The position numbers and the translations under genes are program-made. A DNA stretch of 64,000 nucleotides from Membranipora membranacea (lineage: Eukaryota > Bryozoa > Gymnolaemata > Cheilostomatida > Membraniporidae), in assembly GCA_914767715.1 (NCBI GenBank), contig OU612073.1, forward strand, positions 2,294,001 through 2,358,000, given 5' to 3'. The notes under the pieces were generated by a model. It did not search any database and was not told where the DNA came from. It saw only the letters and a program-made list of their open reading frames with translations. Within the stretch, counting starts at the first letter, position 1. Every line of letters starts with the position of its first letter. This document shows, in pieces, positions 4,416 through 59,634 of this stretch.

Positions 4416-4498
4416 TCAGCTTGTTCCCTTTACTACTTTCCAGTTTACAAACATCCGAGAGCTTTCATCACTGCCTTCAGTTCTCTCCTCCAGTGTAC
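4416..4498 (-). CDS. Tentative last exon of copy 1
   Basis: Exon F can splice at a GTATGT donor that is conserved in phase in all three copies, after TISWLPG. The acceptor at 4499 then gives a 26-residue tail ending with TGA at 4416-4418. If the donor is not used, reading continues to a stop at 4707. Another frame of the same exon also reads as plausible protein (contains WRRELKAVMKAL), so phase and use are open. The duplicate keeps the same exon at 26335-26417. Confidence 0.4.
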
Positions 4499-7400
4499 CT
4501 GAGTAAACAGACAAGGTGTGTATATGATTGGGTGCAACACAAAACAAAATAGTAAGTACAACTATTTTATAGCGCCCTCAGCTATCAGAGTTTACTATGA
4601 CTACATAAGGTCGGTTTGGTGTCAATATTCTGGATTAAGTCTATCACTAAAATTCTTATGACCTTGTCACTGAATATTGTGGGTAAATATGCACATTTAT
4701 GTTTCACTACAAAATCTGTTCACACCATAGGCTTCTGATGTACATCCAGTAACTGTTAACTGCAGCATGTTCTATATCCATCTTATCAAATTGTTTTGTT
4801 TTGTTCTCATTCTTTTGCTCAACATACATACCAGGAAGCCAGGAGATTGTAGATACTGAAGGATTAGGAGATCTGACATTAGTAGTAAGATTATCTGGAT
4901 GTTCTCCTTGTTTTCTCATATCTATCCCTGGTTCCAGGTAGAGTACTTTAGTACCCATATTATTAGTCATCCTCGGTGTCTGTGTTCCACGAGCCTTATT
5001 CTCTTTTGCAGTGTAAGTTCTCACTGCTTCCTGCACCTTAAAAACCAATCGATAATACGCCATTCAATAGTAAGTACAGAGAACATAAACTGAAAACGTC
5101 CATAGGAAACGAGATAATTTATTGTAATGATTATAATAATGGAACCGAGTCAAATTAACTGGACCAAATAATGGAATTGAATATCATTTCCGGAGGCTTT
5201 TCTTCCTGTTTTTCATCAATGTTTGCATTGGATAAATCAGCAGCCTGTCACCACTTACCATATTTCCCAGAGACTGGAGGTGATGCTGATGAGCATACTT
5301 GTAGAAGGTGATAACTAGAGCTCTTAGGAATGGAGATCCTATGTCATCTCTACCAGCGACAAAACCTGTAAAAGGTGAGTTGAATCATCAAAAAATTGAT
5401 TCGATAAGTTGTGAAAATTATAGTTTCATACCTCATATATTTGTCAGCTGTAACAAACCTGAATTTGTTTTTGACCAGTAAGATTATTTGCTGGCACTAT
5501 GTAGGTTAAATGGTTGGGATTAACATTTTGTATAGTTAAGAAAAAACCGGAATCAGTCTGCTGAATAACACAAACATAAGTCTTGGCTGTCGAAGATTTT
5601 GAGTTGACTGAATAATTCATTCTGTTTTCTATATAATATTATATTTCCTAGAAACAAAAGTATGGGATGGTACCTACTGTCAAAGCTAGACTGCATGATG
5701 AAGAGATCAGCTAGTGAGCTGTCCTCAGGCTGATCATCCACATAGGAAGCTCCAGATGGTTGGTTATCAGTTACAGAGTTCTCTGGTGATACCCTCACTA
5801 CTGCTGGTACCTGATTAGTAGTTTTGCTGAGATCCAACATCGTGTCTCTCTTATCTATAATCAGTCAAAACATTGTACTTAGTTATAAGCCGCTGGAGAT
5901 GATAAAATCCCTATTTAACTAAGTTAGGAAGCCTTATGAGAGACGAGACAACTTGAACTTGTGGGAACTAGGACAACTACAAAATTTGTACTACTTACCT
6001 CCGGCGCAGGCTTGTATTATAATAAGTTTAGGTTTTCCCTTCATAGCCGGGAAGTTTCTAGCAGATAATAGCTGATAGATATCAGTCAGCCTGATGTGTT
6101 CACCATCAGACCCTTGGACACTCCCTTCAGCACCATGACCAGTTATAACCAACACAAACATTCCTAGATCTTCATGGACTGATCCGCCTGTCTGGTCTAC
6201 CAGCTGAGTTTCCCTGTGAATGGTCTTCACGATATTCTTCAAAATCATAGGAATGGAATTGAATATGAAGGGGGATCATAATGGGATAAGAGACAGCCAT
6301 TTTTGGTAACATCAACACCTCAATCATAATCGGATATCCACCACATGCTCACACTGTTTTACAGCCGGGAGAATAACTATTGGACATTGTACAAATATGG
6401 CCAAATCCAGCAAAATAGAGCAATCTTAACAGGAATGTATTACCTGTGAAGTGTAGCTTTTATACTCTCCATTCACAAAAAACCCAAAATTCTCCAGCAT
6501 ATTCCTCATGTTATCATGGTCTATGTCAGCACCCTTCCTCCAGTCTATTACTTGGCCGTGAGTATCTTTGACCTCATGTTTATTAGATAATATGAGAGCT
6601 CGGCCTCTAGTCTCAGTCATCGCAAACATTGTCTAAAATAAAATCAAATGTGGTTAATAAACATGAGCACAGCACTGTGGGGGTTACTGAAACCCATGGT
6701 TTGTTTGAACCACAACATCAAGATAGACATCGGGCACAGAGAGCGATTCAATAACACACAGCAATCGTAATAACAACGCCTAAATAAGCTCAAAATAGTT
6801 AGTAGATATAGGTGCCCTTGGTCTGTTTGAACCACAACAGCATTTGGCACAGAGCTAGAGCAGTTCAATGCAGTAATTGTGATAACAATGCTTCAATTCA
6901 AAATAGTAAGTAAAGATAGATGTCCTAGGTTTATTTCTAACATCAATAAAACTCACCATGTTTTTTGGAATAGTTGACTGTGGCACACAAACTTCCAGTT
7001 GCAGATTGATGCCTGCAAGTTGTGATGTCATCAGCTCAATAATATTACGTACAGCTACATTCGGTACTTGCAGGCTAGTCATGTAATTTCTAACTTTGCG
7101 TTTATTTGCATCCGTCAGTGAGAAACCTACAGTGAGAAATCACAAGTTATTTTGATTGACGTATGAGTTACTTTTGATATCTCGGATAGATTTGTGGCTT
7201 TCCTTCGATCATAATTTGGCATGTATTTTTCGTACCCCTCCTCTTGCCCCCGGTTTTTGTCCACCCATCAGAGTATCACACAATGTCAGCTTACTTTTTC
7301 AACTTCCCATTTCCCATATTCATAACCAAAAGTAGAGAGGAGGCAGATGTCATATCAGAAACTGTCAAAACATGATTTTTTTCTGGCACAATTAAACTTA

Positions 7401-10400
7401 CATGGGAATCTTAGAGGCCTCGGTACTTGGAGTTGTCCACCATTAGTTTGATCGTTACAGCAGGGCACAGGGTCAGCATTAGAGAGGAATGTGGTCAGCT
7501 GATGAGAGAGAGGTACATCTTTGTTAGTGTGTCTCAGAGGAGAATACCAATCTGGATCTACTTCAGTCTCAGGCCCACACTCTTGTAGATACAGACAGTG
7601 AGCACAGTAGAACTCACAGATAGGTCGAGCTGCGACCCAGATAGACATCAGGTGGTTGATAAGTGAGTCTGTGATGCCGATCAGCTGCTTCCATGAGAAA
7701 TCTAACTCCTCCACAGGTGTATCCACCTGAACAGTGACTCTGCGATCAGCACTGCTGTGTCTTACACTGCTAACAGTGTTACCATGATGTACCATAGCTC
7801 CACTCCGAGCTGTTCTGATACGATTTCCGGAGTCAGTGAAGGGGGACAGATATACACATGTTAGCAGGTAGTATGCATATGAGGGAGGGGATAGACCAAG
7901 AAACTTGATATCTACTCTAAGTTGTAGAAGTTTGTTGTCCGTAGGAATAGGGTCCAGTGAGTCAGTGGAGAAGTAAGGGATGATGAATGTATTTCTTGGT
8001 GTTTTGTGAATTGGACCACATAAGAGATGGAATGCCTTGAGTAATGGCAACGCCACCTCATATGGAAAGTTATGTTGTGAATACAAACTCGATAGAACAG
8101 CCTCATCAACAACACCACTTCGCAACAGCTGACCAACAAGATCCTCATACTTCACTTTAGGAATCATCTCATTTCCTACAGCTATGAAGTTTGGTTGGGC
8201 TGCCAGTCTAGACTCCCATCGATCTCTCAATCTGTGATGAAACAAAAGGGCGATGGCATCAGTGACGGCAGTAAGTCTGTGGAAAACATATCCACTCAGA
8301 CTATCCTCATGTTCAAACCACAGAACTCTACCAACATTGTGCATGTAGCGGAGCACCGTCAGATTTGCGTCACCTGGGAATTTCTTTGTGACTTCAGTGA
8401 GAAGAATGAAGGGCACATCACTGTTCTGATCAAAGAAGAGAAGCAGTAACTCCCAAAGTTTTGGGATTATTGTGAAGAACGGTTCAGCTCTGATCTGAAG
8501 GATCTGCAGTATCTGCAGGATAATCTCCTTACTGTCATCACTGCTATCTAACTCAAATATATTCTGCGGAGGAAAGATATCTGATGATGACGAGAAGAGG
8601 GCAATACTACAGAACTCAGATTGACCTTTAGTAAATCTCTTCTCCTCCTCTATCATATCCCTGATTAGAGAAGTCAGAGTACCTAGCAGCTCCACCTTTC
8701 TGGTGTCAAAAACAGAAACATCAGAGAATTTGTCTTTATGGGTGAGGACAAGAAGAGGAGGGCCTAGACGAGGACATGACACATATAAATGTGACATGTA
8801 GTCCAGGACTAGTATCCTCACCGCTTCTTTTGGGCCACCTGATGACAACAACTTCTCAAACTGCTCCATATTGACAACAATGACTGGAATATAATTACTT
8901 CGTATTACCATATGATAGGAAATATGGTAAATACGGTCACCTCCAAAATCAAAAACTTTCAACTGTGACTCTCCAACTGTGATCTCGTCTATTTTGAAAA
9001 CCTCAGTAGTGTCATCCTCAATCCCTTCTCTGTTACGATATGTGAGACTTCTTTCCTTTGTTTTCAAACTATTAATGAGACTAGTTTTACCTGCCATTCT
9101 GTTACCGATCACTGCTGCAGAAACTATAGGGAGCTTTACACCACCGTGCTGTTTGAGATCTGTGTAGTATTTTCTTATAGCCTGCAGGCCCTGCTTACAG
9201 ACTGCATAGGGAGGAGATGTCAGAGCTTCACAGTACTCACAGTGCAGCTGCTCTAGAGCAGGTAGAAGAAGAAGACGAGAGTCTAATGATTCAAGGTCTT
9301 TGCTCCTTGATAGGTGCAGTGTCTTGAGCTTCTTCAGTTGTATAATAACTGGTGGGAGAGATGTTAAGCTATTACCACCTATATTTATGGTCTCCAGGTT
9401 CGAGAGATTTGAGAACCTGAAATAATAATTGTATGAGCTATAAGAATTTAGATAAAATACAGACATCTATTCTCAATATCAGTCTACAGCTCTTTTGGCA
9501 CCATTGCCTGAAATAATTGTAAAGCATCAAAGGGCAGATGATAGTGTTGCTCAAGTATCACAAATATAGACATGACATAAATTTAATTCAACACTGTGTT
9601 AATTGCATCATGCATCATTGGGTGATTATATCTGGTAGGTCGTAACTTGTTTCCCTCCGCTCAATATCTCACCCCATCCCAACAACTCCTCACCAATGAG
9701 TGAATTTATGATTAATTTGTATTTATAATGGCTATGTGCGGCTTCAGTACGTTTGTGTACAAATCCTAAAATAATCATTCATGGCCGACATCAATTATTT
9801 TTTTTTTAAAGTTGGTGTAATCGCACATAGGCGACTTAAAGTAGACTGCCCTGTTCATATTTTATTATTTTATTATGTGTGATAGTTTGGCAACTTTTTG
9901 AATAGGCAAATATTGACATCTTAGGTCAGATTCGCAGCCTCTTTGTGTTTTTGGGAAATTCTCACAATTCCTCGAAAGAGGTTTGTCTGAAGAGAATCAT
10001 ATTGTCTTTGAAAGGGTGAAAGAAAGCCTCATGGCCAACATAGTCTCGCTTCTCAAGTCTTATATGGGCTCATTTAATGAGACAGCAAGATGGCGCTGAT
10101 GGCTACTACCTCCACTACTATCGACATCCTCAACATGGAAGCTCTACACCTAATTTTATCATCCTACCAAAAGCTTCATAGGCGTACCAGGGCAAAAGGT
10201 TCTTTTACAGATGCGATTTCCGCCATGTTGAAAATGATCAGATGTCAATCAGCTGTTCTCAGCTCATCTCTACATTTTAGGTATGCAGTTGACTCTGCAG
10301 GCATTTTCTATCTACTTTGCTTGTTCACAGTTGAGGGACTTCAAATGAAATTGAACCGAAATAATTTTTATTATGGGAACTCAACTCTTTAGGAAAAAAA

Positions 10401-13400
10401 TCTGAATTAAATCTCATGTAAGAGCAAGATGGCTCTGAATGTCCCCAACCAATGCTTTGAAAATATACAGCGAAGAGGCAAAAAATTGGTTTCAGAAAAA
10501 AGACTTCCACATTTTCCAAAAAGCCGGATTTGATGACGACAATTAAAAAACTATGGTAAACACGTCAAACATCACTACTGTATCATATGTATATTTTGGG
10601 TCTACATTATTTGAAAATGTTACTTGTAGTATAGACAAAACGGAAAATAATTTTTCACTTAATATTTGCTCCTGAAACGTACAAAATATATTTAAAGACA
10701 TTGAGAATTCGTCTTCATCGGGTGAAATCCTAAAATTTTGGAAAACAGAAATTTGCTTTACGTGTGTACTGTGTACTGAAGTGGAAAATTTTCTCGAAAA
10801 AGCGAATTTTTTACAAGGAAAATAATTATTAGTTGTCTCCTTCTTGTACAGGAAAAAACCAATCTTTAAACTTACTTATATCATAATTATTCTTAATGGA
10901 CAACTGTCGTATTCCTATTGGCTGAGGGATGGGAGCTTTCACCATTCCAGTCAGTTGCATGTTAATGCACTGATCTTTCTGAATTTGGGTAACTTGAAAT
11001 TTGAGGATGGCTTTTAAAAGACTAACGGAAACATACATACTTATATCAGTCATATAAAGAATACACACATATACCTGGTACTTATATCAGTATATCGAAT
11101 ATCTATATAATAAATAAATATGATGATGGTGTTTAAAAAACCTGTTGGAAATATATATATATATATATATATAATATAGATAAAATGATATATATATATA
11201 TATATATATATTTTTATCAGTCATAATATACAGAACACACACGCATACCTGGTACTTATCTCAGTGAGCCCACAGTCATACAGATACAGCAGAGTCAGCT
11301 CAGTCAGCTCACACAGACCATCAGGTACAGATCTGAGTGCTGGGTTATTACTGAGGCCCAGGCTCTGTAGCTTAGTCAGCTGTGATATCCTGTATTATAA
11401 ATAATATGAGTCAGAAATAATTAATTGTGCTGGAGGATTAATATTATACAGCAAGATATTTCTCAAATAATATATTAAATTTTCTTTATTTCGCATGAAT
11501 ATGATCAAAGTATATCATATTATCTCATATTAAATCTGAATATCTATATAATTAATAAATATAGAATTATTCTCTGGCTACATGAGTGCAAATATGAATT
11601 TACGATACTGATATCAGTCACATACAGAATGCACACACATACCTGGTACTTATCTCACTGAGACCACAGTTACACAGATTCAGCACAGTCAGCTCAGTCA
11701 GCTCACACAGACCATCAGGTACAGATCTGAGTGCTGGGTTATTATTGAGGTTTAGGGTCTCTAGCTTAATCAGCTGTGATATCCTGTATATATATAATAT
11801 GAGTCAGAAATATTAACTTGTGCTGGAGGATTTATGTTATCATACATTTTTAAATGATAAATCAAATTTTCCTCATTCCACATAAACATCATCAAACTAT
11901 ATCATAAATCTCATATCAAATCCGAATATCTTTATAATTAATAAATATAGAATTATTCTCTGGCTACATGAGTGCAAAGATGAGATTGTACAGCACATGT
12001 TGTTTAAAATTTTATATATTAGTACATATAGAACATGGCCAAGTTCAATACACAAGTTTAAATACTTTAATTACTTAATTCCTTGATGGTATGCAGTAAA
12101 GTTTTTTGTTAAGTTCCAAGATTAAATCTAATCATATATTCTCAATTTGCCTATGTATGTTATTTGTGGTGTATACTGGCCACCAATAATAAAAATGGGC
12201 GATGCAAGAGTAGCCGGTGTCACATAGAAGGCTGCGGATAGATTGTTTCATGTAAGGTTTTCTCATTTTTAATTCCAATCAAAAGAATGGAACAAAACGA
12301 CATCAAATAAGACTTAATTCAAGCTTGCTGTTGGATAAGAATATTTTGCTAATGCTTTAGTAAGTGTGAGTAACCGGGCTGTGAGACAAGGATAGAGATA
12401 ATAGGAGCCTCGCCCGGGTCATATCGCTGATAAATAACTCAGAAATATAGCATACTAGTATCATGTGTACTCTACTTACCTCTGCCATTCAAATGTTCCC
12501 TGCCTGAGAGAGTCTGTCTTTATCTTCGCCAGTTTGAGCTGTAGGAGATGAGGAGCTATAACTGGTAACCAGGAGGGGAAACTCTTCAGACCAGAGATAC
12601 AGAGATGAGTGATAGAGTTATCTCCCTTCTCTAACTCTATCTCCTCTACTGTCATCACTCTGTAGTCTGTGCGTCTTAAGAGAGGTATCCTCTCTATCTC
12701 CTCCTCTCCTGAGTGTCTGTACCAGACTCTGTACTTCTCTATAATGTGATTATATTATAGATAAATATAATAAGGCATTAAAGATCATAAATATTATAAT
12801 TATATTGATCTTTGTGTACTCATAATACTTATATGGGAATGTAAGATAACAGTTAGATAAATTGTTGTCAACCATACTATAGAATTTAGAATGAAATACA
12901 GGTACAGGTTGGTCGGTGTGGTTTTAGTTGTCTGATCTTAGGTGCAGAATATGTTACATTTGAGGCGCAGTCGGGTTGATAAAACACACCAAACAACCTG
13001 TGAGAATAGGAATGCAACAACATTATGAGTTGTCTGACCTTACATGCCAATGTCTATTATTTATAAAAACCGTCAGCGGAGAGAATTATCCTTGCTTTTA
13101 GCTATTGCAACAATTTCTGTTTCCTAACATTAGGAAAAGATCCCCTCATTTAAGAGATTGAAATATTGTCATGAAAGTGGAACAGTTCTGAGCTATATGC
13201 AGTTACTGAAGAGGTTCACTGCAATAACAGTAAACAGGATTAATGATACCCATCCGTATCTGTTTTTATCCCAGTAAACTATTCTGGACGGTTTCCCCCT
13301 ATAAAAACCCATCTGGCAACTGCTGGTTGCCAAGTTGTCATCATGCAGCTGACAAATAGACCGGTTGGTACTTTGGAAACCACTTGAGTTCGTATTTATA

Positions 13401-13571
13401 GCTAAAGAAACTTTCACTCAGCACTTTCTGAGGCTAATTGGTGCAAAATAACCCAACTGAAATGGCATAACATAAATAAGATTGTCAAACAATTTCATTC
13501 TTACCGACAGAAACTGACTGACCTTTAGCTGACAGAGGAGGATCATTTCTCTTTCTCTTTTTCCGATACAT
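4416..13571 (-). CDS. LRR-Roc-COR-caspase fusion protein, copy 1
   Basis: Predicted exons on the minus strand are 13571-13505, 12738-12480, 11783-11643, 11389-11249, 9416-7402, 7126-6957, 6632-6444, 6236-5999, 5854-5678, 5365-5259, 5036-4832 and 4498-4416. Their summed length is divisible by three (1263 aa). Order: basic N-terminus, unknown N-terminal exon, leucine-rich repeats, Roc GTPase (P-loop GNRMAGKTS, DFGG, THKD), COR, short linker, caspase p20 (GHG histidine, QACAG cysteine) and p10. LRRs usually bind ligands, Roc-COR is a GTP-regulated dimerisation module, and caspases cut after Asp, so a self-activating cytosolic sensor-protease is inferred. The start is uncertain. The first exon is 16 nt shorter than in copy 2 and stays open only in a frame giving a KKRKR patch, so upstream exons (candidates near 17.8 and 20.3 kb) may exist. 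The last exon is tentative. Confidence 0.8.
4832..5365 (-). CDS. Caspase p10 exons of copy 1
   Basis: Two exons (5365-5259 and 5036-4832) encode the small-subunit part. The first has FVAGRDDIGSPFLRAL followed by VITFYKYAHQHH, matching the caspase p10 start. The Arg in AGRDD sits where caspases have the p10 S1-pocket Arg, in the loop before the GS-W/F-aromatic motif. The second exon is an extension beyond a normal p10, with LYLEPGIDMR shared by all copies. The acceptor of the second exon is AAG here and TAG in copy 2. Confidence 0.8.
5678..5854 (-). CDS. Inter-subunit linker exon, copy 1
   Basis: A 177-nt exon begins with the last Gly/Asp of the p20 QACAG-D motif. It runs through an acidic, Asp-rich linker (DDQPEDSS) and ends in ADLFIMQSSFD, the strand that starts the second half of the caspase fold. 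The Asp residues in the linker are possible self-cleavage sites, which is inference. Confidence 0.75.
5999..6632 (-). CDS. Caspase p20 exons of copy 1
   Basis: Exon 6632-6444 encodes RGRALILSNKHEV, then WRKGADID, where the Arg matches the p20 S1-pocket Arg of caspases, and ends at KSYTSQ. Exon 6236-5999 encodes the histidine motif VLVITGHGAEGS and ends in KPKLIIIQACAG with the catalytic Cys. S1 arginines rather than acidic residues make this a true caspase-type, not a metacaspase-type, site. The second exon uses an AAG acceptor, as do the matching exons of copies 2 and 3. Confidence 0.88.
6957..7126 (-). CDS. Linker exon between COR and caspase, copy 1
   Basis: A 170-nt exon encodes FSLTDANKRKVRNY to IPKNM. 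No known domain is recognised. In copy 3 the matching protein stretch is split between two exons (58818-58720 and 58559-58381) with extra residues between, so the gene structure differs here. Confidence 0.7.
7402..9416 (-). CDS. Terminal LRRs, Roc GTPase and COR exon, copy 1
   Basis: A single 2015-nt exon, bounded by TTTCAG and GTAAGT, encodes about 672 residues. The first 75 are LRRs (LSNLETINIGGNSLTSLPP pattern). Roc follows with P-loop GNRMAGKTS, switch-2 DFGG, and THKD in place of the NKxD of Ras. Then comes the COR region with IPKLWELL, MHNVGRVLWF and a long helical part. A P-loop LRR GTPase with COR is the ROCO family signature. COR usually mediates dimerisation. The last 160 or so residues are identical in copy 2. 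Confidence 0.9.
9417..11248. other. Intron, no gene seen
   Basis: The largest intron of copy 1 holds short ORFs that do not resemble protein and a (TA)n stretch at 11150-11215 in two blocks. The same sequence is present in copy 2. Confidence 0.6.
11150..11215. repeat. (TA)n microsatellite
   Basis: Two TA runs separated by a short unique spacer, just 3' (on the minus strand) of the second LRR exon. The length differs in copy 2 (about 33042-33095). Confidence 0.9.
11249..11783 (-). CDS. Two LRR-module exons, copy 1
   Basis: Exons 11783-11643 and 11389-11249 are each exactly 141 nt (47 codons). Both start and end in phase 2 and encode two LRR units with the frame ISQLxKLxxLxLxxNPALRSVPDGLCELTEL. 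Equal length and symmetric phase mean that single exons can be gained or lost without a frameshift. They differ from each other mainly at the variable LRR positions. Confidence 0.9.
12480..12738 (-). CDS. N-terminal exon of unknown fold, copy 1
   Basis: A 259-nt exon (phase 1 in, phase 2 out) encodes KYRVWYRHSGEEEIERIP and ends in GTFEWQ. The middle (SITHLCISGLKSFPSWLP) looks like a degenerate LRR cap. It is conserved in copy 2 (34640-34382) and, frameshifted, in copy 3 (59535-59303). No named domain is recognised. It differs between copies 1 and 2 at many residues, more than the COR part does. Confidence 0.75.
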
Positions 13572-13597
13572 GATAGGTAACTTCCCAAACCTGTTTC
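13505..13597 (-). CDS. First predicted exon of copy 1 (divergent frame)
   Basis: The exon is bounded by CTATTATAG and GTAAGAA. Relative to copy 2 (36209-36101) it is 16 nt shorter. To join the next exon in frame it must be read so that it encodes MYRKKRKRNDPP, with ATG at 13571. In the frame used by copy 2 the message would hit a stop in the next exon. Entry from an upstream exon in phase 1 would also keep it open. Confidence 0.5.
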
Positions 13598-26334: not shown

Positions 26335-29300
26335 TCAGTTTGTAATCTTTACTACTTTCCAGTTTACAAACATCCGAGAGCTTTCATCACTGCCTTCAGT
26401 TCTCTCCTCCAGTGTACCTGAGTAAACGGACAAGGTGTATATATGATTGGGTGCAACACAAAAACAAAATAGTAAGTACAACTATTTTATAGCGCCCTCA
26501 GCTATCAGAGTTTACTATGACTACATAAGGTCGGTTTGATGTCAATATTCTGGATTAGGTCTATCACTAAAATTCTTATGACCTTGTCACTGAATATTGT
26601 GGGTAAATATGCACATTTATGTTCCACTACAAAATCTGTTCACACCATAGGCTTCTGATGTACATCCAGTAACTGTTAACTGCAGCATCTTATATATCCA
26701 TCTTATCAAATTGTTTTGTTTTGTTCTCATTCTTTTGCTCAACATACATACCAGGAAGCCAGGAGATTGTAGATACTGAAGGATTAGGAGATCTGACATC
26801 GGTAGTAAGATTATCTGGATGTTCTCCTTGTTTTCTCATATCTATCCCTGGTTCCAGGTAGAGTACTTTAGTACCCATATTATTAGTCATCCTCGGTGTC
26901 TGAGTTCCACGAGCCTTATTATCTCTTGCAGTGTAAGTCCTCACTGCTTCCTGCACCTAAAAAACCAATCGATAACACGCCATTCAATAGTAAGTAGAGA
27001 GAACATAAACTGAAAACGTCCATAGGAAACGAGATAATCTATTGTAATGATTATCATAATGGAACCGAGTCACTAACTGGACCAAATAATGGAATCGAAT
27101 ATCATTTCCGGAGGCTTTTCTTCCTGTTTTTCATCAATGTTTGCATTGGATAAATCAGCAGCCTGTCACCACTTACCATATTTCCCAGAGACTGGAGGTG
27201 ATGCTGATGAGCATACTTGTAGAAGGTGATAACTAGAGCTCTTAGGAATGGAGATCCTATGTCATCTCTACCAGCGACAAAACCTGTAAAAGGTGAGTTG
27301 AATCATCAAATGATTTATTCGATAAGTTGTGAAAATTATGGTTTCATACCTCATATATTTGTCAGGTGTAACAAACCTGAATTTGATTTTGACCAGTAAG
27401 ATTATTTGCTGGCACTATGTAGGTTAAATGGTTGGGATTAACATTTTGTATAGTTTAGAAAAAACCAGAATCAGTCTGCTGAATAGCACAAATATAAGTC
27501 TTGGCTGTCGAAGATTTTGAGGTGACTGAATAATTCATTCTGTTTTCTATATAATATTATATTTCCTAGAAACAGAGAAGTCGTGGATGGTACCTACTGT
27601 CAAAGCTAGACTGCATGATGAAGAGATCAGCTAGTGAGCTGTCCTCAGGCTGATCATCCACATAGGAAGCTCCAGATGGTTGGTTATCAGTTACAGAGTT
27701 CTCTGGTGATACCCTCACTACTGCTGGTACCTGATAAGTAGTTGTGCTGAGATCTAGCATTGTGTCTCTCTTATCTATAATCAGTCAAAACATTGTACTT
27801 AGTTATAAGCCGCTGGAGATGATAAAATCCCTATTTAACTAAGTTAGGAAGCCTTATGTGAGACGAGACAACTTCAACTTGTGGGAACTTGGACAACTAC
27901 AAAATTTGTACTACTTACCTCCGGCGCAGGCTTGTATTATAATAAGTTTAGGTTTTCCCTTCATAGCCGGGAAGTTTCTAGCAGATAATAACTGATATAT
28001 ATCAGTCAGCCTGATGTGTTCACCATCAGACCCTTGGACACTCCCTTCAGCACCATGACCAGTTATAACCAACACAAACATTCCTAGATCTTCATGGACT
28101 GATCGGCCTGTCTGGTCTACCAGCTGAGTTTCCCTGTGAATGGTCTTCACGATATTCTTCAAAATCATAGGAATGGAATTGAATATGAAGGGGGGTCATA
28201 ATGGGACAAGACACAGTCAGTTTTTGTAACATCAACACCTCAATAATAATTGGATATCCACCACATGCTCACACTGATTTACAGCCGGGAGAATAACTAT
28301 TGGACATTTTACAAATATGGTTACTAGTCTAGAGACTGTGAAACAAGGGCTCTTTCAAGAATCGCCGAATTAATAGAGGAATCTTAACAGGGATGTGTTA
28401 CCTGTGAAGTGTAGCTTTTATACTCTCCATTCACAACAAACCCAAAATTCTCCAGCATATTCCTCATGTTATCATGGTCTATGTCAGCACCCTTCCTCCA
28501 GTCTATTACTTGGCCGTGATTATCTTTGACCTCATGTTTATTAGATAATATGAGAGCTCGGCCTCTAGTCTCAGTCATCGCGTACAGTGTCTAAAATAAA
28601 ATCAAATGTGGTTAATAAACATGAGCACAGCACTGTGGGGGTTACTGAAACCCATGGTTTGTTTGAACTACAACATCAAGATAGACATCGGGCACAGAGA
28701 GCGATTCAATAACACACAGCAATCGTAATAACAACGCATAAATAAGCTCAAAATAATTAGTAGATATAGGTGCCCTTGGTCTGTTTGAATCACAACAGCA
28801 TTTGGCACAGAGCTAGAGCGGTTCAATGCAGTAATTGTGATAACAATGCCTCAATTCAAAATAGTAAGTAGAGATAGATTTCCTAGGTTTATTTCTAACC
28901 TCAATAAAACTCACCATGTTTTTTGGAATAGTTGACTGTGACACACAAACTTCCAGTTGCAGATTGATGCCTGCAAGTTCTGATGTCATCAGCTCAATAA
29001 TATTACGTACGGCTACATTCGGTACTTGGAGGCTAGTCATGTAATTTCTAACTTTGCGTTTATCTGCATCCGTCAGTGAGAAACCTACAGTGAGAAATTA
29101 CAAGTTATTTTGATTGACGTATGAGTTACTTTTGATATCTTGGATAGATTTGTGGCTTTCCTTCGATCATAATTCGGCATGTATTTTCCGTACCCCTCCT
29201 CTTGCCCCCGGTTTTTGTCCACCCATCAGAGTATCACACAATGTCAGCTTACTTTTTCAACTTCCCATTTCCCATATCCATAATCAAAAGTAGAGAGGAG

Positions 29301-32300
29301 GCAGATGTCATATCAGAAACTGTCAAAACATGATTTTTTTCTGGCGCAATTAAACTTACATGGGAATCTTAGAGGCCTCGGTACTTGGAGTTGTCCACCA
29401 TTAGTTTGATCGTTACAGCAGGGCACAGGGTCAGCATTAGAGAGGAATGTGGTCAGCTGATGAGAGAGAGGTACATCTTTGTTAGTGTGTCTCAGAGGAG
29501 AATACCAATCTGGATCTACTTCAGTCTCAGGCCCACACTCTTGTAGATACAGACAGTGAGCACAGTAGAACTCACAGATAGGTCGAGCTGCGACCCAGAT
29601 AGACATCAGGTGGTTGATAAGTGAGTCTGTGATGCCGATCAGCTGCTTCCATGAGAAATCTAACTCCTCCACAGGTGTATCCACCTGAACAGTGACTCTG
29701 CGATCAGCACTGCTGTGTCTTACACTGCTAACAGTGTTACCATGATGTACCATAGCTCCACTCCGAGCTGTTCTGATACGATTTCCGGAGTCAGTGAAGG
29801 GGGACAGATATACACATGTTAGCAGGTAGTATGCGTATGAGGGAGGGGATAGACCAAGAAACTTGATATCTACTCGAAGTTGTAGAAGTTTGTTGTCCGT
29901 AGGAATAAGGTCCAGTGAGTCAGTGGAGAAGTAAGGGATGATGAATGTATTTCTTGGTGTTTTGTGAATTGGACCACATAAGAGATGGAATGCCTTGAGT
30001 AATGGCAACGCCACCTCATATGGAAAGTTATGTTGTGAATACAAACTCGATAGAACAGCCTCATCAACAACACCACTTTGCAACAGCTGACCAACAAGTT
30101 TCTCATACTTCACTTTAGGAATCATCTCATTTCCTACAGCTATGAAGTTTGGTTGGGCTGCCAGTCTAGACTCCCATCGATCTCTCAATCTGTGATGAAA
30201 CAAAAGGGCGATGGCATCAGTGACGGCAGTAAGTCTGTGGAAAACATATCCCCTCAGACTATCCTCATGTTCGAACCACAGAACTCTACCAACATTGTGC
30301 ATGTAGCGGAGCACCGTCAGATTTGCGTCACCTGGGAATTTCTTTGTGACTTCAGTGAGAAGAATGAAGGGCACATCACTGTTCTGATCAAAGAAGAGAA
30401 GCAGTAACTCCCAAAGTTTTGGGATTATTGTGAAGAACGGTTCAGCTCTGATCTGAAGGGTCTGCAATATCTGAAGAATAATCTCCTTACTGTTATCACT
30501 GCTATCTAACTCAAATATATTCTGTGGAGGAAAGATTTCTGATGATGACGAGAAAAGGGCAACACTACAGAACTCAGAGGGACCTTTAGTAAATCCCTTC
30601 TCCTCCTCTATCATATCCCTGATTAGAGAAGTCAGAGTACCTAGCAGCTCAATCTTTCTGGTGTCAAAAACAGAAACATCAGAGAATTTGTCTTTATGGG
30701 TGAGGACAAGAAGAGGAGGGCCTAGACGAGGACATGACACATATAAATGTGACATGTACTCCATGACTAGTATCCTCACCGCTTCTTTTGGGCCACCTGA
30801 TGACAACAACTCCTCAAACTGCTCCATATTGACAACAATGACTGGAATATAATTACTTCGTATTACCATATGATAGGAAATATGGTAAATACGGTCACCT
30901 CCAAAATCAAAAACTTTCAACTGTGACTCTCCAACTGTGATCTCAGCCATTCTGAAAACCTCAGTAGTGTCATCATCAATCCCTTCTCTGTTACGATATG
31001 TGAGACTTCTTTCCTTTGTTTTCAAACTATTAATGAGACTAGTTTTACCTGCCATTCTGTTACCGATCACTGCTGCAGAAACTATAGGGAGCTTTACACC
31101 ACCGTGCTGTTTGAGATCTGTGTAGTATTTTCTTATAGCCTGCAGGCCCTGCTTACAGACTGCATAGGGAGGAGATGTCAGAGCTACACAGTCAACACAG
31201 TCCAGCTCCTCTAGAGCAGGTAGAAGAAGAAGACGAGAGTCTAATGATTCAAGGTCTTTGCTCCTTGATAGTTTCAGTGTTTCGAGCTTCTTCAGTTGTA
31301 TAATAACTGGTGGGAGAGATGTGAAGCTATTATCTCCTATAAATAATCTCTCCAGGTTCGAGAGATTTGACAACCTGAAATAATAATTGTATGAGCTATA
31401 AGAATTTAGATAAAATACAGACGTCTATTCTCAATATCAGTCTACAGCTCTTTTGGCACCATTGCCTGAAATAATTGTAAAGCATCAAAGGGCAGATGAT
31501 AGTGTTGCTCAAGTATCACAAATATAGACATGACATAAATTTAATTCAACACTGTGTTAATTGCATCATGCATCATTGGGTGATTATATCTGGTAGGTCT
31601 TAACTTGTCTCCCTCCGCTCAATATCTCACCCCATCCCAACAACTCCTCACCAATGAGTGAATTTATGATTAATTTGTATTTATAATGGCTAAGTGCGGC
31701 TTCAGTACGTTTGTGTACAAATCCCAAAATAATCATTCGTGGCCGACATCAATGATTTTTTTTTAAAAGTTGGTGTAATCGCACATAGGCAACTTAAAGT
31801 TGACTGCCCTGTTCATATTTTATTATTTTATTATGTGTGATAGTTTGGCAACTTTTTGAATAGGCAAAAATCTTAGGTCAGATTCGCAGCCTCTTTGTGT
31901 TTTTGGGAAATTCTCACAATTCCTCGAAAGAGGTTTGTCTGAAGAGAATCATTTGTCTTTGAAAGGGTGAAAGAAAGCCTCATGGCCAACATAGTCTCGC
32001 TTCTCAAGTCTTATATGGGCTCATTTAATGAGACAGCAAGATGGCGCTGATGGCTACTACCTCCACTACAATCGACATCCTCAACATGGAAGCTCTACAC
32101 CTAATTTTATCATCCTACCAAAAGCTTCATAGGCGTACCAGGGCAAAAGGTTCTTTTACAGATGCGATTTCCGCCATGTTGAAAATGATCAGATGTTAAT
32201 CAGCTGTTCTCAGCTCATCTCTACATTTTAGGTATGCAGTTGACTCTGCAGGCATTTTCTATCTACTTTGCTTGTTGACAGTTGAGGGACTTCAAATGAA

Positions 32301-35300
32301 ATTGAACCGAAACTTTTTTATTATGGGAACTCAACTCTTTAGGAAAAAAATCTGAATTAAATCTCATGTAAGAGCAAGATGGCTCTGAATGTCGCCAACC
32401 AATGCTTTGAAAATATACAGCGAAGAGGCAAAAAATTGGTTTCAGAAAAAAGACTTCCACATTTTCCAAAAAGCCGGATTTGATGACGACAATTAAAAAA
32501 CTATGGTAAACACGTCAAACATCACTACTGTATCATATGTATATTTTGGGTCTACAATATTTGAAAATGTTACTTGTAGTATAGACAAATCGGAAAATAA
32601 TTTTTCACTTAATATTTGCTCCTGAAACGTACAAAATATATTTAAAGACATCGTGAATTCGTCTTCATCGTGTGAAATCCTAAAATTTTGGAAAACAGAA
32701 ATTTGCTTTACGTGTGTACTGTGTACTGAAGTGGAAAATTCTCTCGAAAAAGCGACTTTTTAAGAGGGAAAATAATTATTAGTTGTCTTCTTCTTGTACA
32801 GGAATCCTATTGGCTGAGGGATGGGAGCTTTCACCATTCCAGTCAGTTGCATGTTAATGCACTGATCTTCCTGAATTTGGGTAACTTGAAATTTGAGGAT
32901 GGCGTTTAAAAGACTAATGGAAACATACATACTTATATCAGTCATATACAGAATACACACATATACCTGGTACTTTATCAGTATATCGAATATCTATATA
33001 ATTAATAAATATGATGATGGTGTTTAAAAAACCTGTTGGAAATATATATATATATATATTATATAGATAAAATGATATATATATATATATATATTTCTAT
33101 CAGTCATAATATACTGATATCAGTCATAATATACAGAAGACACACACATACCTGGTACTTATCTCAGTGAGCCCACAGTTAAACAGATTCAGCTCAGTAA
33201 GCTCAGTCAGCTCACACAGACCATCAGGTACAGAGCTGAGTTCTGGGTTATAACTGAGGTCCAGGGTCTGTAACTTAGTCAGCTGTGATATCCTGTATTA
33301 TAAATAATATGAGTCAGATATAATTAATTGTGCTGGAGGATTTATATTATACAGCAAGATATTTCTCAAACAATGTATTAAATTTTCTTCATTTCACGTG
33401 AATATGATCAATGTATATCATAATATCTCATATTAAATCTGAATCTATATAATTAATAAATATAGAATTATTCTCTGGCTACATGAGTGCAAAGATGAAT
33501 TTACGCTACTGATATCAGTCACATACAGAATACACACACATACCTGGTACTTATCTCAGTGAGCCCACAGCTTAACAGATTCAGCTCAGTCAGCTCAGTC
33601 AGCTCACACAGACCATCAGGTACAGATCTGAGTGCTGGGTTATTACTGAGGTCCAGGGTATGTAACTTAGTCAGCTGTGATATCCTGTATTATATAAAAT
33701 ATGAGTCAGAAATATTAACTTGTGCTGGAGGATTTATGTTATCATACGTTTTTAAATGATAAATCCAATTTTCCTCATTCCACATAAACATCATCAAACT
33801 ATATCATAAATCTCATATTAAATCCGAATATCTATATAATTAATAAATAGAGAATTATTCTCTGGCTACATGAGTGCAAAGATGAGATTGTACAGCACAT
33901 GTTGTTTAAAATTTTATATATTAGTACATATAGAACATGGCCAAGTTCAATACACAAGCTTAAATACTTTAATTACTAAATTCCTTGATGGTATGCAGTA
34001 AAGTTTTTTGTTAAGTTCCAATATTAAATCTAATCATATATTTTCAATTTGCCTATGTATGTTATTTGTGGTGTATACTGGCCACCAATAATAAAAATGG
34101 GCGATGCAAGAGTAGCCGGCGTCACATAGAAGGCTGCGGATAGATTGTTTCATGTAAGGTTTTCTCATTTTTAATTCCCATCAAAAGAATGGAACAAATC
34201 GACATCAAATAAGACTTAATTCAAGCTTGCTGTTGGATAAGAATATTTTGCTAATGCTTTAGTAAGTGTGAGTAAGCGGGCTGTGAGACAAGGATAGAGA
34301 TAATAGGAGCCTCGCCCGGGTCATATCACTGATAAATAACTCAGAAATATAGCATAATAGTATCATGTGTACTCTACTTACATCTGCCATTCAAATGTGC
34401 CCTGCCTGAGAGAGTCTTCATCAATAAGCTCCAGTTGGAGCTGTAGGAGATGAGGAGCTATATCAGGTAACCAGGAGGGGATACTCATCAGACCAGAGAT
34501 ACAGAGTTGAGTGATAGAGTTATCTCCCTTCTCTAACTCTATCTCCTCCCATGTCATGTCTCTGTAGTATGTGTACCATGAGTGAGGTATCATCTCTATC
34601 TCCTCCTCTCCTGAGTGTCTGTACCAGACTCTGTACTTATCTATAATGTGATTATATTATAGATAAATATAATAAGGCATTAAAGATCATAAATATTATA
34701 ATTATACTGATCTTTGAGTACTCATACTACTTATATGGGAATGTTAGACAACAGTTAGATAAATTGTTGTCAACAATACTATAGAATTTAGAATGAAATA
34801 CAGGTACAGGTTGGTCGGTGTGGCTTTAGTTGTCTGATCTTAGGTGCAGAATATGTTACATTTGAGGAGCAGTCGAGTTGATAAAACACACCAAACTGCC
34901 TGTGAGAATAGGAATGCAACAACATTATGAGTTGTCTGACCTTACATGCCAATGTCTATTGCTTATAAAAACCGTCAGCAGGGAGAATTATCCTCGCTTA
35001 TAGCTATTGCAACAATTTCTGTTTCCTAACATTAGGAAAAGGTCCCCTCATTTAAGAGATGGAAATATTGTCATGAAAGCGGAACAGTTCTGAGCTATTT
35101 GCAGTTACTGAAGAGGTTCACTGCTATAACAGTAAACAGGATTAATGATGCCCTTTGCTTACAACAATGAGTAAGATAATTCCCTCTGTAAACAGGAAAT
35201 ACAGTCATACCATCATTATCAGAGTTGTCCCCTCTCTCACCAGCAGAGTTATCCCCTCTCTCATAATCAGAGTTATCCCGACTCTCACCAAAATTTGATT

Positions 35301-36200
35301 CGGAGTTATCTACAATCTCAGGTAGTATGATGACCTCTTCCTGGTATATCTCTTTAGTGATGTCATTTCCACTACAAGTTACACAGTCTCCCTGATCTGA
35401 AAGAAATACATCTGTGTAAGCTGCTGAATTTATGCATCACAAATCATGAGTGTAATATTACAGTTTTTTTTAGTTTGATAAGGTTAATCAACTCCGCCTC
35501 CCCCGTGGGTTTCATCATAGACAATGATAGTGAAGAAATTTGATGTTTGATATGAGTTTCAGCAAGTTTTGTGCTGAAAAATATGTCCTGTAAATAGTGA
35601 TCAACCACGCATCTCTGTATAAAGGCAAACTGCTAATGGAAATACCCATCCGGGGCCAACTGGCCATCCTTTTCACCTTGTATCGATTTCAGCATGTCAC
35701 CATAACAAAGCCATCTGGTTGCATATATTGTAGCAGGATGGCCTAGCAACAATTTGTATTACAAACCCATCCGCATGGCTGTTTGGCAACTGCTGGTTGC
35801 CCAATACCAACTAGAAAGGGCATTCATCAGCCTACTGATGCCGTATACCCATCCGTATCTGTTTGTATCCCAGTAAACTATTCTGGATGGTTTCCCCCTA
35901 TAAAAACCCATCTGGCAACTGCTGGTTGCCAAGTTGTCATCATGCAGCTGACAAATTGACCGGTTGGTACTTTGGAAACCACTTGAGTTCCAATATAGCT
36001 AAAGAAACTTTCACTCAGCAATTTCCAAGGCTAATTGGTGCAAAATAACCTACTGAAATGGCATAACATAAATTAATTTGTCAAACAATTTCATTCTTAC
36101 CGTCAGACACTGACTGTCCATCACCTTTAGCTGAGGGAGGAGGATCATTCCCCTTTGAGGAAGGCTCAGCTTTTCTGAACCATGAAAGATAACTTCCCAT
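26335..36200 (-). CDS. LRR-Roc-COR-caspase fusion protein, copy 2
   Basis: Predicted exons are 36200-36101, 35396-35211, 34640-34382, 33684-33544, 33292-33152, 31374-29360, 29084-28915, 28590-28402, 28156-27919, 27774-27598, 27283-27177, 26956-26752 and 26417-26335. The total is 4011 nt (1336 aa plus stop) with all phases consistent. Rough residues: acidic N-terminus 1-95, unknown N-terminal exon 96-181, LRRs 182-350, Roc P-loop near 380-388, DFGG near 432, THKD near 501, COR to about 947, linker to 1004, caspase p20 1005-1146 with His near 1101 and Cys near 1144, p10 after that. The ATG (CAGGTATGG) has a good context, but an upstream exon is possible. It is the most intact gene of the cluster. 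The same sensor-protease role as copy 1 is inferred. Last exon tentative. Confidence 0.83.
26752..28590 (-). CDS. Caspase p20 and p10 exons, copy 2
   Basis: Exons 28590-28402, 28156-27919, 27774-27598, 27283-27177 and 26956-26752 match copy 1 in length and phase. They keep both S1 arginines (WRKGADID and AGRDD), the GHG histidine and the QACAG cysteine. Only scattered substitutions separate it from copy 1. The final exon has a normal TAG acceptor where copy 1 has AAG. Confidence 0.87.
28915..29084 (-). CDS. Linker exon between COR and caspase, copy 2
   Basis: A 170-nt exon, the same as 6957-7126 in copy 1 with few substitutions. The fold is unknown. Confidence 0.7.
29360..31374 (-). CDS. Terminal LRRs, Roc GTPase and COR exon, copy 2
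   Basis: A 2015-nt exon of exactly the same length as in copy 1. Roc motifs GNRMAGKTS, DFGG and THKD are intact. Compared with copy 1, about 13 replacements fall in the first 75 residues (LRRs), about 20 in the next 440, and none in the last 160 or so of COR. Confidence 0.9.
33152..33684 (-). CDS. Two LRR-module exons, copy 2
   Basis: Exons 33684-33544 and 33292-33152, each 141 nt and phase 2-2, carry the same framework as copy 1 with different residues at the variable positions (for example ELNLLSCGL here against VLNLCNCGL in copy 1). Confidence 0.9.
34382..34640 (-). CDS. N-terminal exon of unknown fold, copy 2
   Basis: 259 nt, the same length and phases as 12480-12738. The start KYRVWYRHSGEEEIE is identical, but the rest differs at many residues (IPHSWYTYYRDMTWEE here, IPLLRRTDYRVMTVEE in copy 1). 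Confidence 0.75.
35211..35396 (-). CDS. Acidic repeat exon, only in copy 2
   Basis: A 186-nt exon (phase 1 to 1) lies between TTTCTTTCAG and GTATGAC. It encodes QGDCVTCSGNDITKEIYQEE followed by an acidic stretch with three ERGDNS-like repeats. The phase fits both neighbours. Copy 1 has a deletion here (junction at about 13248), so its protein lacks this segment. Confidence 0.65.
36101..36200 (-). CDS. First predicted coding exon, copy 2
   Basis: It encodes MGSYLSWFRKAEPSSKGNDP... and ends in phase 1 at GTAAGAA. The ATG is absent in copy 1 (TTG). The exon's acceptor is at 36210, so the 5' UTR or more coding sequence lies upstream. Confidence 0.55.
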
Positions 36201-55510: not shown

Positions 55511-56634
55511 AAATGTATCAGTAAATTAAAAATTTTAATTCTAATATAACGCATTATTTATTTATGGTCCATTTTAAAATACCATTTTATTGGCGCAGCT
55601 CTACTAGCCTAAACAAAGCGTTACTCTTATCTGGTTCTGTATTTTTAAAGAGCAAGTTTCTTTCCTCTGTGAACGTAGAGGAATACGGGAAGCTGTGTAT
55701 CAAGGCCTCTCGATACTCGACGTTTACAAGGATTGACCCTGTCACCACAGAAAAAACAAACTTGTTCTAGTATTCTTATGAATGACTGATATATGACAGA
55801 TATTATGTGTGGGAGGTGATTACTATACAGGGTCAAGGATTGATATAGGGCTGGGATAGTGGTACAATATTTAGCTTAAATCTATTTGACTGAATGAAGA
55901 TTTCTGCACTGGTGTGTAAAATAGACTAACCAAACAAATATTGATCCACTTTTATATATTTCATCTGTTGATTCAAACTAATATTCACAACAATGGGACT
56001 GTATAAATTTGGAGTTATCTATAATTCATACCGTCGAGCCAGGAGATTGTAGTCTGTGGAGGATTAGGATCTCTGACATCAGTAGTAACATTAGCTGGAT
56101 GCTCTCCTAGATGTCTCATATCTATCCCTGGTTCTAGGTAGAGTGGTCTGTCACACATAGTACTGGTTATCTTAGGCATCTGAGCTACATACGCCTTTTC
56201 TCTGTCCTGAGGTGATACCATCTGCCTGAGTTCATCAGTTCTCTGCACGCTGCTCTTACTGACAGCTTTCTGGACCTGGTGAGACAGAAAAAAAACTTCA
56301 AAGATGCAATACCAAATTACCGTGTTTGTAATAACGTCCAGGTCATGGCAGTGGCCACAACCATCAAAGTGTTGGTTTGATTTATTCTCATCGATACTTA
56401 TACTCGTTGTACCATACTCATATTATTACTTGAATTTGGATTCATTCTTAGATGCACCGGCATATGACAGGCCACTAATGAGATTGAAATTAGCATAAAT
56501 CAACAACAATGAGGGCAGGCAAATCCAATATATGATTATCTCCACATCATCAGACAAGCTCCCTGATTAGATTATTTAACCAGTCTGATATCTCAGACTA
56601 AATAACCATTTACTGTCACCTAGAGTTGATACAC

Positions 56635-56636
<2 letters not shown>

Positions 56637-56666
<30 letters not shown>
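56637..56666. repeat. (TA)n microsatellite
   Basis: A simple TA run in a copy 3 intron. Confidence 0.9.
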
Positions 56667-56672
<6 letters not shown>

Positions 56673-57358
56673 AACTTACCTTATTTACTGAAAAGCAGAA
56701 ATAATATACATCTTTATGAAACAAACTCACCATATTCCCCAGAGTAAGCAGGTGATGTTGGTGAGCATACTTGTAGAATGTCACAACCACAGCTCTGATG
56801 AATTGAGACCCCGAATCTGTCGATCTTATTGACACAAATGCTGAAGAAGAAATGTTCAATGAGTGAACATAACAAATAAAAACTGACTTGAATACTGGTT
56901 GAATGTGATAATATAAGTTTGGAATCAGATAAAGAAATTTTTACAAGAAAAACAAGAGAACAATTTGATATCAAAATGGTTTGGTTCTGGAGATATTTCA
57001 TACAAATTTCAAATGTTTTTAATGTGCAATCTGCAAACTCATCACTTTATATTTTGTTGAGTTTTCCCATCTATACTGTGGAAAATAGGCTCAGTAGGTA
57101 CTTACTATCAAAGCTGGCTTGCATGACAAACAGATCAGCTACAGATATATCACTGGGATCTGAGTCTACATGTCCATTATCTACTGTCTGTGATCTCACT
57201 TCCTGTCTGTTATCTGGCTGATCAGCAGCTGTGTTGTTTACCGAGTCTGTCATCATCTCTCTGTTAACTGCAAATCAAAAAAATCAATGCAAGATATGCA
57301 TAAAATAATGCTGAGAGACTGTTGGTACAAAACATCTAATAGCTCAAAACTTCTGTTT

Positions 57359-57595
57359 CTAGGATACGAATTGTTGATAATGTAATTTTGGTTTTCCTCT
57401 CATAGCCAAGAAGTTTTTAGCAGATAATAACTGATAGATATTAGTAAGTTTGATATGTTTGTGATCAGATCCTACAACAGTTCCTTCTGCGCAATGACTA
57501 GTTATAACCAGTACAAACATTCCAAGATCTTTGTATACCGACTGGCCTGTCTGATCTACCAGATGAGTCTCTCTGTGAATCTCTGTCACTATATC
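57359..57595 (-). pseudogene. Broken p20 active-site exon of copy 3
   Basis: It matches exons 5999-6236 and 27919-28156 up to GKPKL, then loses similarity. The bases that should encode the Cys motif and the GTAAGT donor are replaced. The histidine is still present (TSHCAEGT). Without the Cys no protease activity is possible. Confidence 0.8.
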
Positions 57596-58839: not shown

Positions 58840-58935
58840 AATGTTATATTACATTTTATATTACATGTTACATTTATTACATATTACATATTACATGTTA
58901 TATTACATTACATTACATTTACATATTATTTTTAC
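58840..58935. repeat. TTACAT-type simple repeat at a deletion junction
   Basis: Irregular repeats of TTACAT and TACATTACAT. Immediately after it (from about 58945) sequence homologous to copy 1 at about 12117 begins, so it marks the point where the LRR and Roc-COR exons are absent. Confidence 0.8.
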
Positions 58936-59302
58936 AGTTTAAGATTAAATCTTATCATATATTTTCATTTTGCCTATGCATGTTAGTTGTGGTGTATACT
59001 GGCCACCAATAATAAATAAGGGCGATGCAAGACTAGCCGGTGTCACATAGAAGGCTGCGAATAGATTGTTTCATGTAAGGCTTTCCCATTTTTAATTCCA
59101 ATCGAAAGAATGAAACAAAACGACATCAAATAAGACTTAATTCAAGTTTGCTGTTGGATAAGAATATTTTGCTAATTCTTTAGTAAGTGAGAGTAAGCGG
59201 GCTGTGAGACAAGGATAGAGATAATAGGAGCCTCGCCAGGGTCATATCACTGATAAATAACTCAGAAACATAGCATAATAGTATCATGTGTACTCTACTT
59301 AC

Positions 59303-59535: not shown

Positions 59536-59634
59536 CTATAATGTGATTATATTATAGATAATTATAATAAGGTATTAAAGATCATAAATATTACAATTAA
59601 TAAAAAAATAGATAAAAATCTCTCTACTTCAGGG

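Follow-up and report, generated by a model that had tools for sequence, protein, structure and literature searches.

Here, we describe a gene of the bryozoan Membranipora membranacea in which leucine-rich repeats (LRRs), a Roc-COR GTPase unit and a complete caspase are read as one protein. The gene, copy B, lies in a 64,000-nucleotide stretch of contig OU612073.1 (assembly GCA_914767715.1), which is the window analyzed here and corresponds to C9:2294001-2358000 in our genome coordinates; two relatives, copies A and C, share it. We consider it nearly certain that this one-protein architecture is real and is shared by a bryozoan family that numbers many dozens of genes. The one-chain LRR-Roc-COR-caspase protein proposed in a preliminary description of the window is backed by the splice structure, by paralogues in the same genome and by gene models of a second bryozoan, Watersipora subatra.

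Domain order and gene structure

Copy B was placed by hand as 13 exons on the minus strand (36200..26335), which together form one open reading frame (ORF) of 1336 residues. All internal junctions are GT/AG, and the phases fit throughout. Along the protein, an MGSYLS start is followed by LRRs, Roc, COR, a short linker and a complete caspase, encoded as follows.

Exon 1, 36101..36200, minus strand: ATG; N-terminal MGSYLS
Exon 2, 35211..35396, minus strand: acidic linker, RGDNS-type repeats; unmatched in tandem copy A
Exon 3, 34382..34640, minus strand: N-terminal cap region with the motif (V/I)WYRH(S/T)G, also present in W. subatra P0001, P0003 and P0141
Exon 4, 33544..33684, minus strand: LRR exon, 141 bp, phase 2-2
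Exon 5, 33152..33292, minus strand: LRR exon, 141 bp, phase 2-2; 95% identity with exon 4
Exon 6, 29360..31374, minus strand: final LRRs, Roc GTPase (GNRMAGKT, DFGG, THKD), COR-A/COR-B; ends in a phase-1 donor
Exon 7, 28915..29084, minus strand: linker with the motif FSLTDADKRKVRNYMTSLQ, also behind COR in related loci and W. subatra
Exon 8, 28402..28590, minus strand: caspase p20 start with the S1-pocket type R-x-G motif (RKGADID)
Exon 9, 27919..28156, minus strand: caspase p20 core; catalytic His (TGHGAEG), catalytic Cys (QACAG)
Exon 10, 27598..27774, minus strand: p20-p10 intersubunit linker (YVDDQPED) and p10 start
Exon 11, 27177..27283, minus strand: p10 core; AGRD aligned to caspase-9 SWRD
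Exon 12, 26752..26956, minus strand: p10 end and tail
Exon 13, 26335..26417, minus strand: C-terminal tail, stop TGA

The near-identity of exons 4 and 5 points to a recent exon duplication or conversion. The exon 7 linker places ~56 residues between COR and caspase.

A Pfam search of the window protein returned LRRs, Roc and caspase in this order. Roc (PF08477) scored 30.3 bits against a cut-off of 27 with its Ras-like motifs GNRMAGKT, DFGG and THKD present, and the caspase (PF00656) matched over the full profile (1-233 of 233, E 4.4e-30). COR gave no Pfam match. Its position directly behind Roc was established by hhalign and by fold instead, the LRR-Roc-COR exon having the same fold as LRRK1/LRRK2 and the C. 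tepidum Roco. Membership in the ROCO family is supported by sequence and fold, and membership in the caspase family by sequence. The 13-exon ORF, its canonical sites and the Pfam order bear out the preliminary description of a ROCO GTPase (P-loop, DFGG, THKD, COR) spliced in phase to a full caspase p20/p10; among the Pfam domains that it named, Roc and Peptidase_C14 were recovered, and COR was backed by hhalign and fold.

The motifs were followed in 25 rows, comprising 23 loci of the genome (L019-L041) and window copies A and B. The P-loop, DxGG, THxD, R-x-G, His and QACAG were all kept in 25 of 25, and the aligned stretches of exons 6 and 9 were stop-free in every row, with the exon 6 match of L037 split (388 aa) and several others partial. 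The p10 Arg, examined in the window copy, aligned with caspase-9 SWRD (E 0.014 for the p10 piece alone); together with R-x-G, we take it to be among the residues that set the Asp specificity of the caspase S1 pocket. By database, the p20 ranked nearest to caspase-2 (E 1.7e-17), followed by caspase-9 (1.8e-16), an ancestral effector caspase (5.7e-15) and CED-3 (5.8e-15). "Initiator-like" is therefore used here for a ranking, not a phylogeny, because the ancestral effector caspase stands alongside CED-3. Neither a protein kinase nor NACHT or NB-ARC was among the 12 Pfam matches of the window protein (E up to 10). CARD, DED and death domains had no Pfam match in the window protein (E up to 10) or in five W. 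subatra proteins (E up to 0.1), a sequence search that leaves a divergent death fold in the linker possible.

At the N-terminus, copy B (MGSYLS) and W. subatra P0001 (MGAKSS), P0003 (MGNGQS) and P0141 (MGCSLS) fit the N-myristoylation pattern M-G-x-x-x-S/T. The copy B leader is lipid-anchor-like in sequence, and the protein is possibly membrane-anchored.

Evidence for one gene across the junction behind COR

The end of exon 6 bears on whether ROCO and caspase belong to one gene. A phase-1 GT donor was found there in all 24 rows whose match reached the exon end (of 25), and it was kept even in L040 and L041, at 35% and 33% identity. Because a last exon is not expected to keep a donor, this conservation argues that exon 6 is not the last. 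Other sites were retained wherever the match reached the exon edge: the exon 6 acceptor (21/21), the exon 8 donor (23/23), and the exon 9 acceptor (19/19) and donor (25/25). COR was followed by a linker motif (FSLTDADKRKVRNYM in the window; elsewhere LSLTEPDKDKVSAYI, FELTADEKTQIKDYL and others) in 22 of the 24 rows searched, L037 being excluded. AG fell exactly at the phase-1 exon start in all 22 rows with the motif, which is a consistency check and not a blind test, because the pattern was devised after the frames had been viewed and the script favors AG matches. The pattern was unmatched in L041 and copy A; copy A nonetheless has an exon 7 with AG.

For the survey, a profile that included the LRRs was swamped by LRR proteins (310 matches, 120 listed), and an LRR-free profile was used instead, giving 35 matches, of which 21 are from W. 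subatra and 14 are metagenome or bacterial-type proteins without a name. Neither the 35 LRR-free matches nor the 120 listed of 310 included a named protein from outside Bryozoa with both Roc-COR and PF00656, in a search that sees only relatives sharing 5-residue words and that scores a limited set of candidates. Unnamed metagenome ORFs (P0007, P0009, P0125, P0131, P0133-P0139, P0142) had the size of the Roc-COR exon and ~36-44% identity to the W. subatra query; these are perhaps bryozoan DNA in environmental samples. We compared 23 W. subatra sequences, all automated gene models, several of which NCBI labels MFHAS1-like or MFHAS1 homolog. PF00656 was annotated by database in 11 (P0001, P0002, P0004, P0006, P0123, P0124, P0128, P0141, P0144, P0146, P0152). 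The whole order of LRRs, P-loop, COR-end junction and QACxG stood in one chain in six of the 23 (P0001, P0002, P0006, P0123, P0128, P0141), all with the COR-end P-L/F-R/K-x-P-C junction, so that the domain order proposed for the window recurs in a related genome. Proteins of this species read through the same junction (PLKLPCFQLHKDEVEMLKSYLADL, PLRFPCFHLTDNEIKKLKEFLSKL and others), and a Pfam scan of P0001, P0002 and P0006 gave LRR, Roc and C14 in order, with Roc below the cut-off (18.4-22.8 bits). Six of the 12 models without PF00656 extend further, P0126, P0129, P0132, P0140 and P0150 into the linker and P0143 into the p20 start.

Two neighboring genes, one for a ROCO protein that stops near 29.3 kb and one for a caspase that begins near 28.6 kb, might have been duplicated together. 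The unspliced Roc-COR frame of the window does meet a stop ~15 codons beyond the donor, an ATG lies in exon 8 just ahead of the caspase core, and 12 of the 23 W. subatra models carry no caspase; in the same set, P0004, P0144, P0146 and P0152 have their start within Roc or COR, and P0124 breaks off in p20. Against two genes stand the donor preserved in every one of the 24 rows, the most distant at 33% identity, the linker motif with its phase-1 acceptor in 22 of 24 rows, whereas the unspliced tails vary from 8 to 50 codons, and the fused models of a second genus. We regard such a pair as very improbable, and a split near 29.0 kb, the alternative raised with the preliminary description, appears contradicted by the conserved donor and by the linker motif behind its acceptor. 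A gene with several products, in which intron retention or an internal promoter adds ROCO-only and caspase-only isoforms to the fused protein and regulation acts partly in trans, is unlikely. The stop soon after the exon 6 donor and the exon 8 ATG would permit both isoforms, and W. subatra P0130 terminates at PLRFPCK, like the unspliced exon; yet the unspliced tails are unlike between copy types and similar only among near copies.

A lineage-expanded family with exchanged modules

The genome searched comprised 339,339,785 bp in 18 contigs. Its lists are the best of longer ones (140 of 515 caspase, 66 of 269 ROCO and 150 of 372 Roc candidates scored), and all family counts are lower bounds. The Roc-COR exon retrieved at least 67 rows, which merged to at least 65 loci; Roc rows lying in open frames no shorter than 360 aa brought the number to at least 99 ROCO loci. 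A listed caspase lay within 6 kb downstream on the same strand at no fewer than 57 of the 99, and among the caspase matches listed none lay upstream within that distance or on the opposite strand. When the ROCO loci were shifted by 20-300 kb in 1000 trials, the mean was 2.97 and the maximum 9 of 99. Of the 42 loci for which no caspase was listed, seven were read. L024, L025, L026, L029 and L038 have caspase exons downstream, L043 has them with SHG and QACSG, and L042 has a diverged caspase-like frame pair of 27.0 bits (above the cut-off of 21.4) and 17.0 bits (below). Caspase or caspase-like exons therefore follow at least 64 of the 99 ROCO loci, the other 35 being outside the loci read, and they follow on the same strand at each of the 27 loci that were read, namely copies A and B and 25 loci retrieved by position. 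In the reverse direction, 45 of 137 merged listed caspase loci have a listed ROCO locus upstream; of the remainder, some will be beside unlisted ROCOs and some will be ordinary caspases. Among the matches listed, other copies share 34 to 96% identity with the window Roc-COR exon. The ROCO-caspase genes are a lineage-expanded family.

Two further members lie in the window.

Copy A (tandem copy), 4416..13587, minus strand: ~97% identity to copy B over the Roc-COR-to-caspase part
Copy C, 56024..59599, minus strand: relic with the N-terminal exon and diverged caspase exons, without a Roc-COR match, the catalytic Cys region gone

Exons 3-13 of copy A are open with canonical sites. Exon 2 is absent, and TTG replaces the ATG of exon 1; downstream, an ATG in frame gives MYRKKRKRNDPP... 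and precedes a basic stretch. Copy C matches at ~89% in its N-terminal exon and ~78-80% in its caspase exons, and it looks like a relic left by a deletion, with unequal divergence at its two ends. The upstream flank of copy A (14175-16983) recurs in pieces, at 94-98%, upstream of copy C (60839-64000), and the duplicated unit is therefore larger than the gene. Long self-complementary stretches, hairpin-type repeats, were also seen at 22614-23132 (~78%, 526 columns) and 43637-44002 (~88%, 367 columns).

It is hardly probable that the copies are mostly non-functional or inflated by assembly, as haplotype duplicates or pseudogenes. Copy C is decayed, copy A is without its start ATG, and 17 haplotypic duplications were removed at curation according to passages of the assembly report (PMC10290214). 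The same passages describe a chromosome-level HiFi assembly (PMC10290214). The spread of identity from 34 to 96%, the stop-free aligned stretches of exons 6 and 9, the catalytic motifs kept in all 25 rows and a ratio of nonsynonymous to synonymous differences (pN/pS) of 0.2-0.35 in Roc, COR and caspase exon 9 of 14 copies likewise argue for functional genes.

Selection was examined in the 14 C9 copies out of the 25 rows, with exposed LRR strand sites picked by the xxLxLxx motif. The mean number of residue kinds per site was 4.40 at 15 exposed sites and 1.50 at 54 other LRR sites (Mann-Whitney p 3.9e-6). Pooled, uncorrected pN/pS, from pairs of related and hence non-independent copies, was 1.59 for exposed LRR, 1.07 for other LRR, 0.34 for Roc, 0.23 for COR and 0.22 for caspase exon 9. 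Recognition-face LRR residues diversify, and constraint acts on Roc, COR and caspase. In the single pair of copies A and B, dN exceeds dS in LRR exons 3-5, with COR at dN 0.010 and dS 0.030 and caspase exons 8-12 at pN 0.014 and pS 0.044.

Module exchange was tested in 20 of the 25 rows, L032, L035, L037, L040 and L041 being left out for partial matches or a different caspase type. Caspase exons 8-9 rejected the Roc-COR grouping {A, B, L019-L023} (approximately unbiased test, p-AU 6e-5) and the Roc-COR exon rejected the caspase grouping {A, B, L022, L026, L031} (p-AU 2e-107), values that are descriptive because the groups were picked from observed identities. L031 shares 71% with copy B in the Roc-COR exon and 94-100% in exons 7-13, and L019 shares 94% and 47-87% (exons 8-13), respectively. 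The ~96% match between copy B and L019 holds as far as window position 29354, beyond which similarity is lost until exon 8. Because this break falls 6 bases beyond the exon 6 donor, the exchange point is placed in the intron behind the Roc-COR exon. By these patterns, sensor-switch and caspase modules have been exchanged between family members, and at this intron a fused gene can replace one effector by another.

Some loci showed features of their own. The best-scoring caspase row, L001:1297-2334 (C4:18.27 Mb), has FFDSSTGS at the expected QACxG position and is probably a pseudo-caspase in one open exon. At L031:6725-8386 and L026:6796-7882, a second set of pieces downstream matches the final 81 bases around the end of the COR exon and then the caspase exons, as if truncated copies follow full ones. 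L032 (from 3271) and L035 (from 3348) carry an acidic linker, SDDEDGW, ahead of the caspase, with a W. subatra counterpart of the SD.EEGYCDE type; this stretch is a candidate autoprocessing or phosphorylation site. The acidic W. subatra linker motif (ESD[LVI]SD..EGYC type) was dropped as an autocleavage site, the window copies being without it.

Proposed mechanism and relation to known systems

Initiator caspases need two caspase domains close together for activation. In the mechanism proposed here, the concave LRR face, variable between copies, would read a pathogen, damage or self/non-self signal at the membrane. Ligand binding would shift the nucleotide state of Roc and the COR-mediated balance of monomer and dimer, and COR would join two caspase domains without death-fold adaptors. 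Proximity would activate the caspases, which may cleave their own linkers at aspartates and would start cell death or inflammatory proteolysis. In passages of PMC6337361, the main dimer interface of the C. tepidum Roco is made by the C-terminal part of COR; since the caspase follows ~56 residues behind COR, a COR dimer would hold two caspases close. We infer membrane anchoring, ligand sensing, dimer-driven activation, autocleavage and cell death, and likewise the "self-contained sensor, switch and executioner" of the preliminary description. This sequence of LRR sensor, Roc-COR dimer and proximity-activated caspase could equally well be right or wrong, and a bryozoan one-chain LRR-Roc-COR-caspase receptor that would be intracellular and work in this way is the best explanation overall and, we think, a fairly probable one.

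Several observations weigh against it. In passages of PMC11052575, the nucleotide-free C. tepidum Roco is a compact dimer with the LRRs folded back, and the GTP-gamma-S form is an open monomer. GTP thus breaks that dimer; by analogy, activity may belong to the dimer in its GDP or apo form, or else Rocos of bryozoans may behave differently. The structure model of the whole W. subatra P0002 chain has a mean predicted local distance difference test score (pLDDT) of 50.6, mostly below 45 over the caspase, and the caspase ranking includes an ancestral effector caspase. Between copies A and B, Roc runs counter to the general trend (dN 0.0275 above dS 0.0172, 11 to 2 changes). As for the membrane leader, copy A has lost its MG start, and six W. 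subatra models start with MG, of which three fit the pattern and P0130, P0143 and P0148 are without S/T at position 6.

The role could also be regulated tissue loss (polypide regression, metamorphosis) or other housekeeping in place of non-self recognition. A caspase would suit a sessile colonial animal such as a bryozoan, in which polypide regression is a cyclic tissue degeneration. Many recent tandem copies, a diversifying LRR face and module exchange are typical of recognition families and not of a developmental protease, which makes this role rather improbable.

To our knowledge, animal initiator caspases are known as separate proteins, recruited by sensors through death-fold adaptors. In the Apaf-1/caspase-9, CED-4/CED-3 and PIDD/caspase-2 systems, the caspase is a separate protein recruited to the platform by CARD or death domains. 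The bryozoan protein resembles these systems in that a sensor-switch would gather initiator caspases, its own ranking nearest caspase-2 and caspase-9 with CED-3 close behind. It differs in that the caspase is covalently attached, with no death-fold domain in Pfam. LRRK1/LRRK2 and the C. tepidum Roco share the fold of the LRR-Roc-COR exon and likely a dimer-regulated GTPase switch; the LRRKs end in a kinase and the C. tepidum Roco is without a caspase, whereas the effector of the bryozoan protein is a caspase. NLRs likewise combine an LRR sensor, an NTP switch and an effector, with tandem clusters and diversifying LRRs, but their switch is a NACHT or NB-ARC STAND ATPase and not Roc-COR. The bryozoan protein is a ROCO protein that probably works in an NLR-like way. 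MFHAS1/MASL1 shares the LRR-Roc-COR core, and passages of PMC6337361 give it only LRR and RocCOR, whereas the bryozoan protein has a caspase after COR. Brown algal LRR-ROCO candidate immune receptors (Teng 2024, PMC11378527) are alike, in the sections available, in their expanded family, phase-2 LRR exons and diversifying sites on the concave LRR face; their LRR exons are 72 bp and the bryozoan ones 141 bp. They are not animals, a few have a C-terminal peptidase, this being IPR009003 and not a caspase (same sections of PMC11378527), and the word caspase is absent from the main text of that paper. ROCO domains joined to TLR and MyD88 proteins are reported for Aplysia in part of PMC9334734, and the portions available of two papers on conflict systems (eLife 52696 and 70394) discuss COR-linked GTPases and caspases without describing a fusion of this kind. 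Among the open-licence literature matches listed, no title or abstract opening announced a ROCO-caspase fusion and no paper dealt with a comparable bryozoan gene family; the Flustra genome paper contains neither the word caspase nor any word in immun-. The parts are individually known; what appears new is the architecture, with its expansion and module exchange.

With sensor, GTPase switch and caspase in one chain, the recruitment step is removed, and a single purified protein would be enough for a direct test of whether a GTPase dimer cycle drives caspase proximity. LRRK2 has made the output of ROCO proteins a matter of debate, and the family gives them a simple protease read-out. We tentatively suggest that bryozoans possess a germline repertoire of dozens to more than 100 membrane-anchored one-chain receptors, with modules reshuffled at the intron behind the Roc-COR exon. 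Such a repertoire would be an equivalent of inflammasomes or resistance genes that arose without NACHT/NB-ARC ATPases or death-fold adaptors, and it might underlie cell suicide in immunity or in colony self/non-self recognition. The family offers candidate recognition genes for the phylum Bryozoa, and it looks like a built-in cell alarm system in which a variable recognition part, a switch and a death-type protease are held in single proteins.

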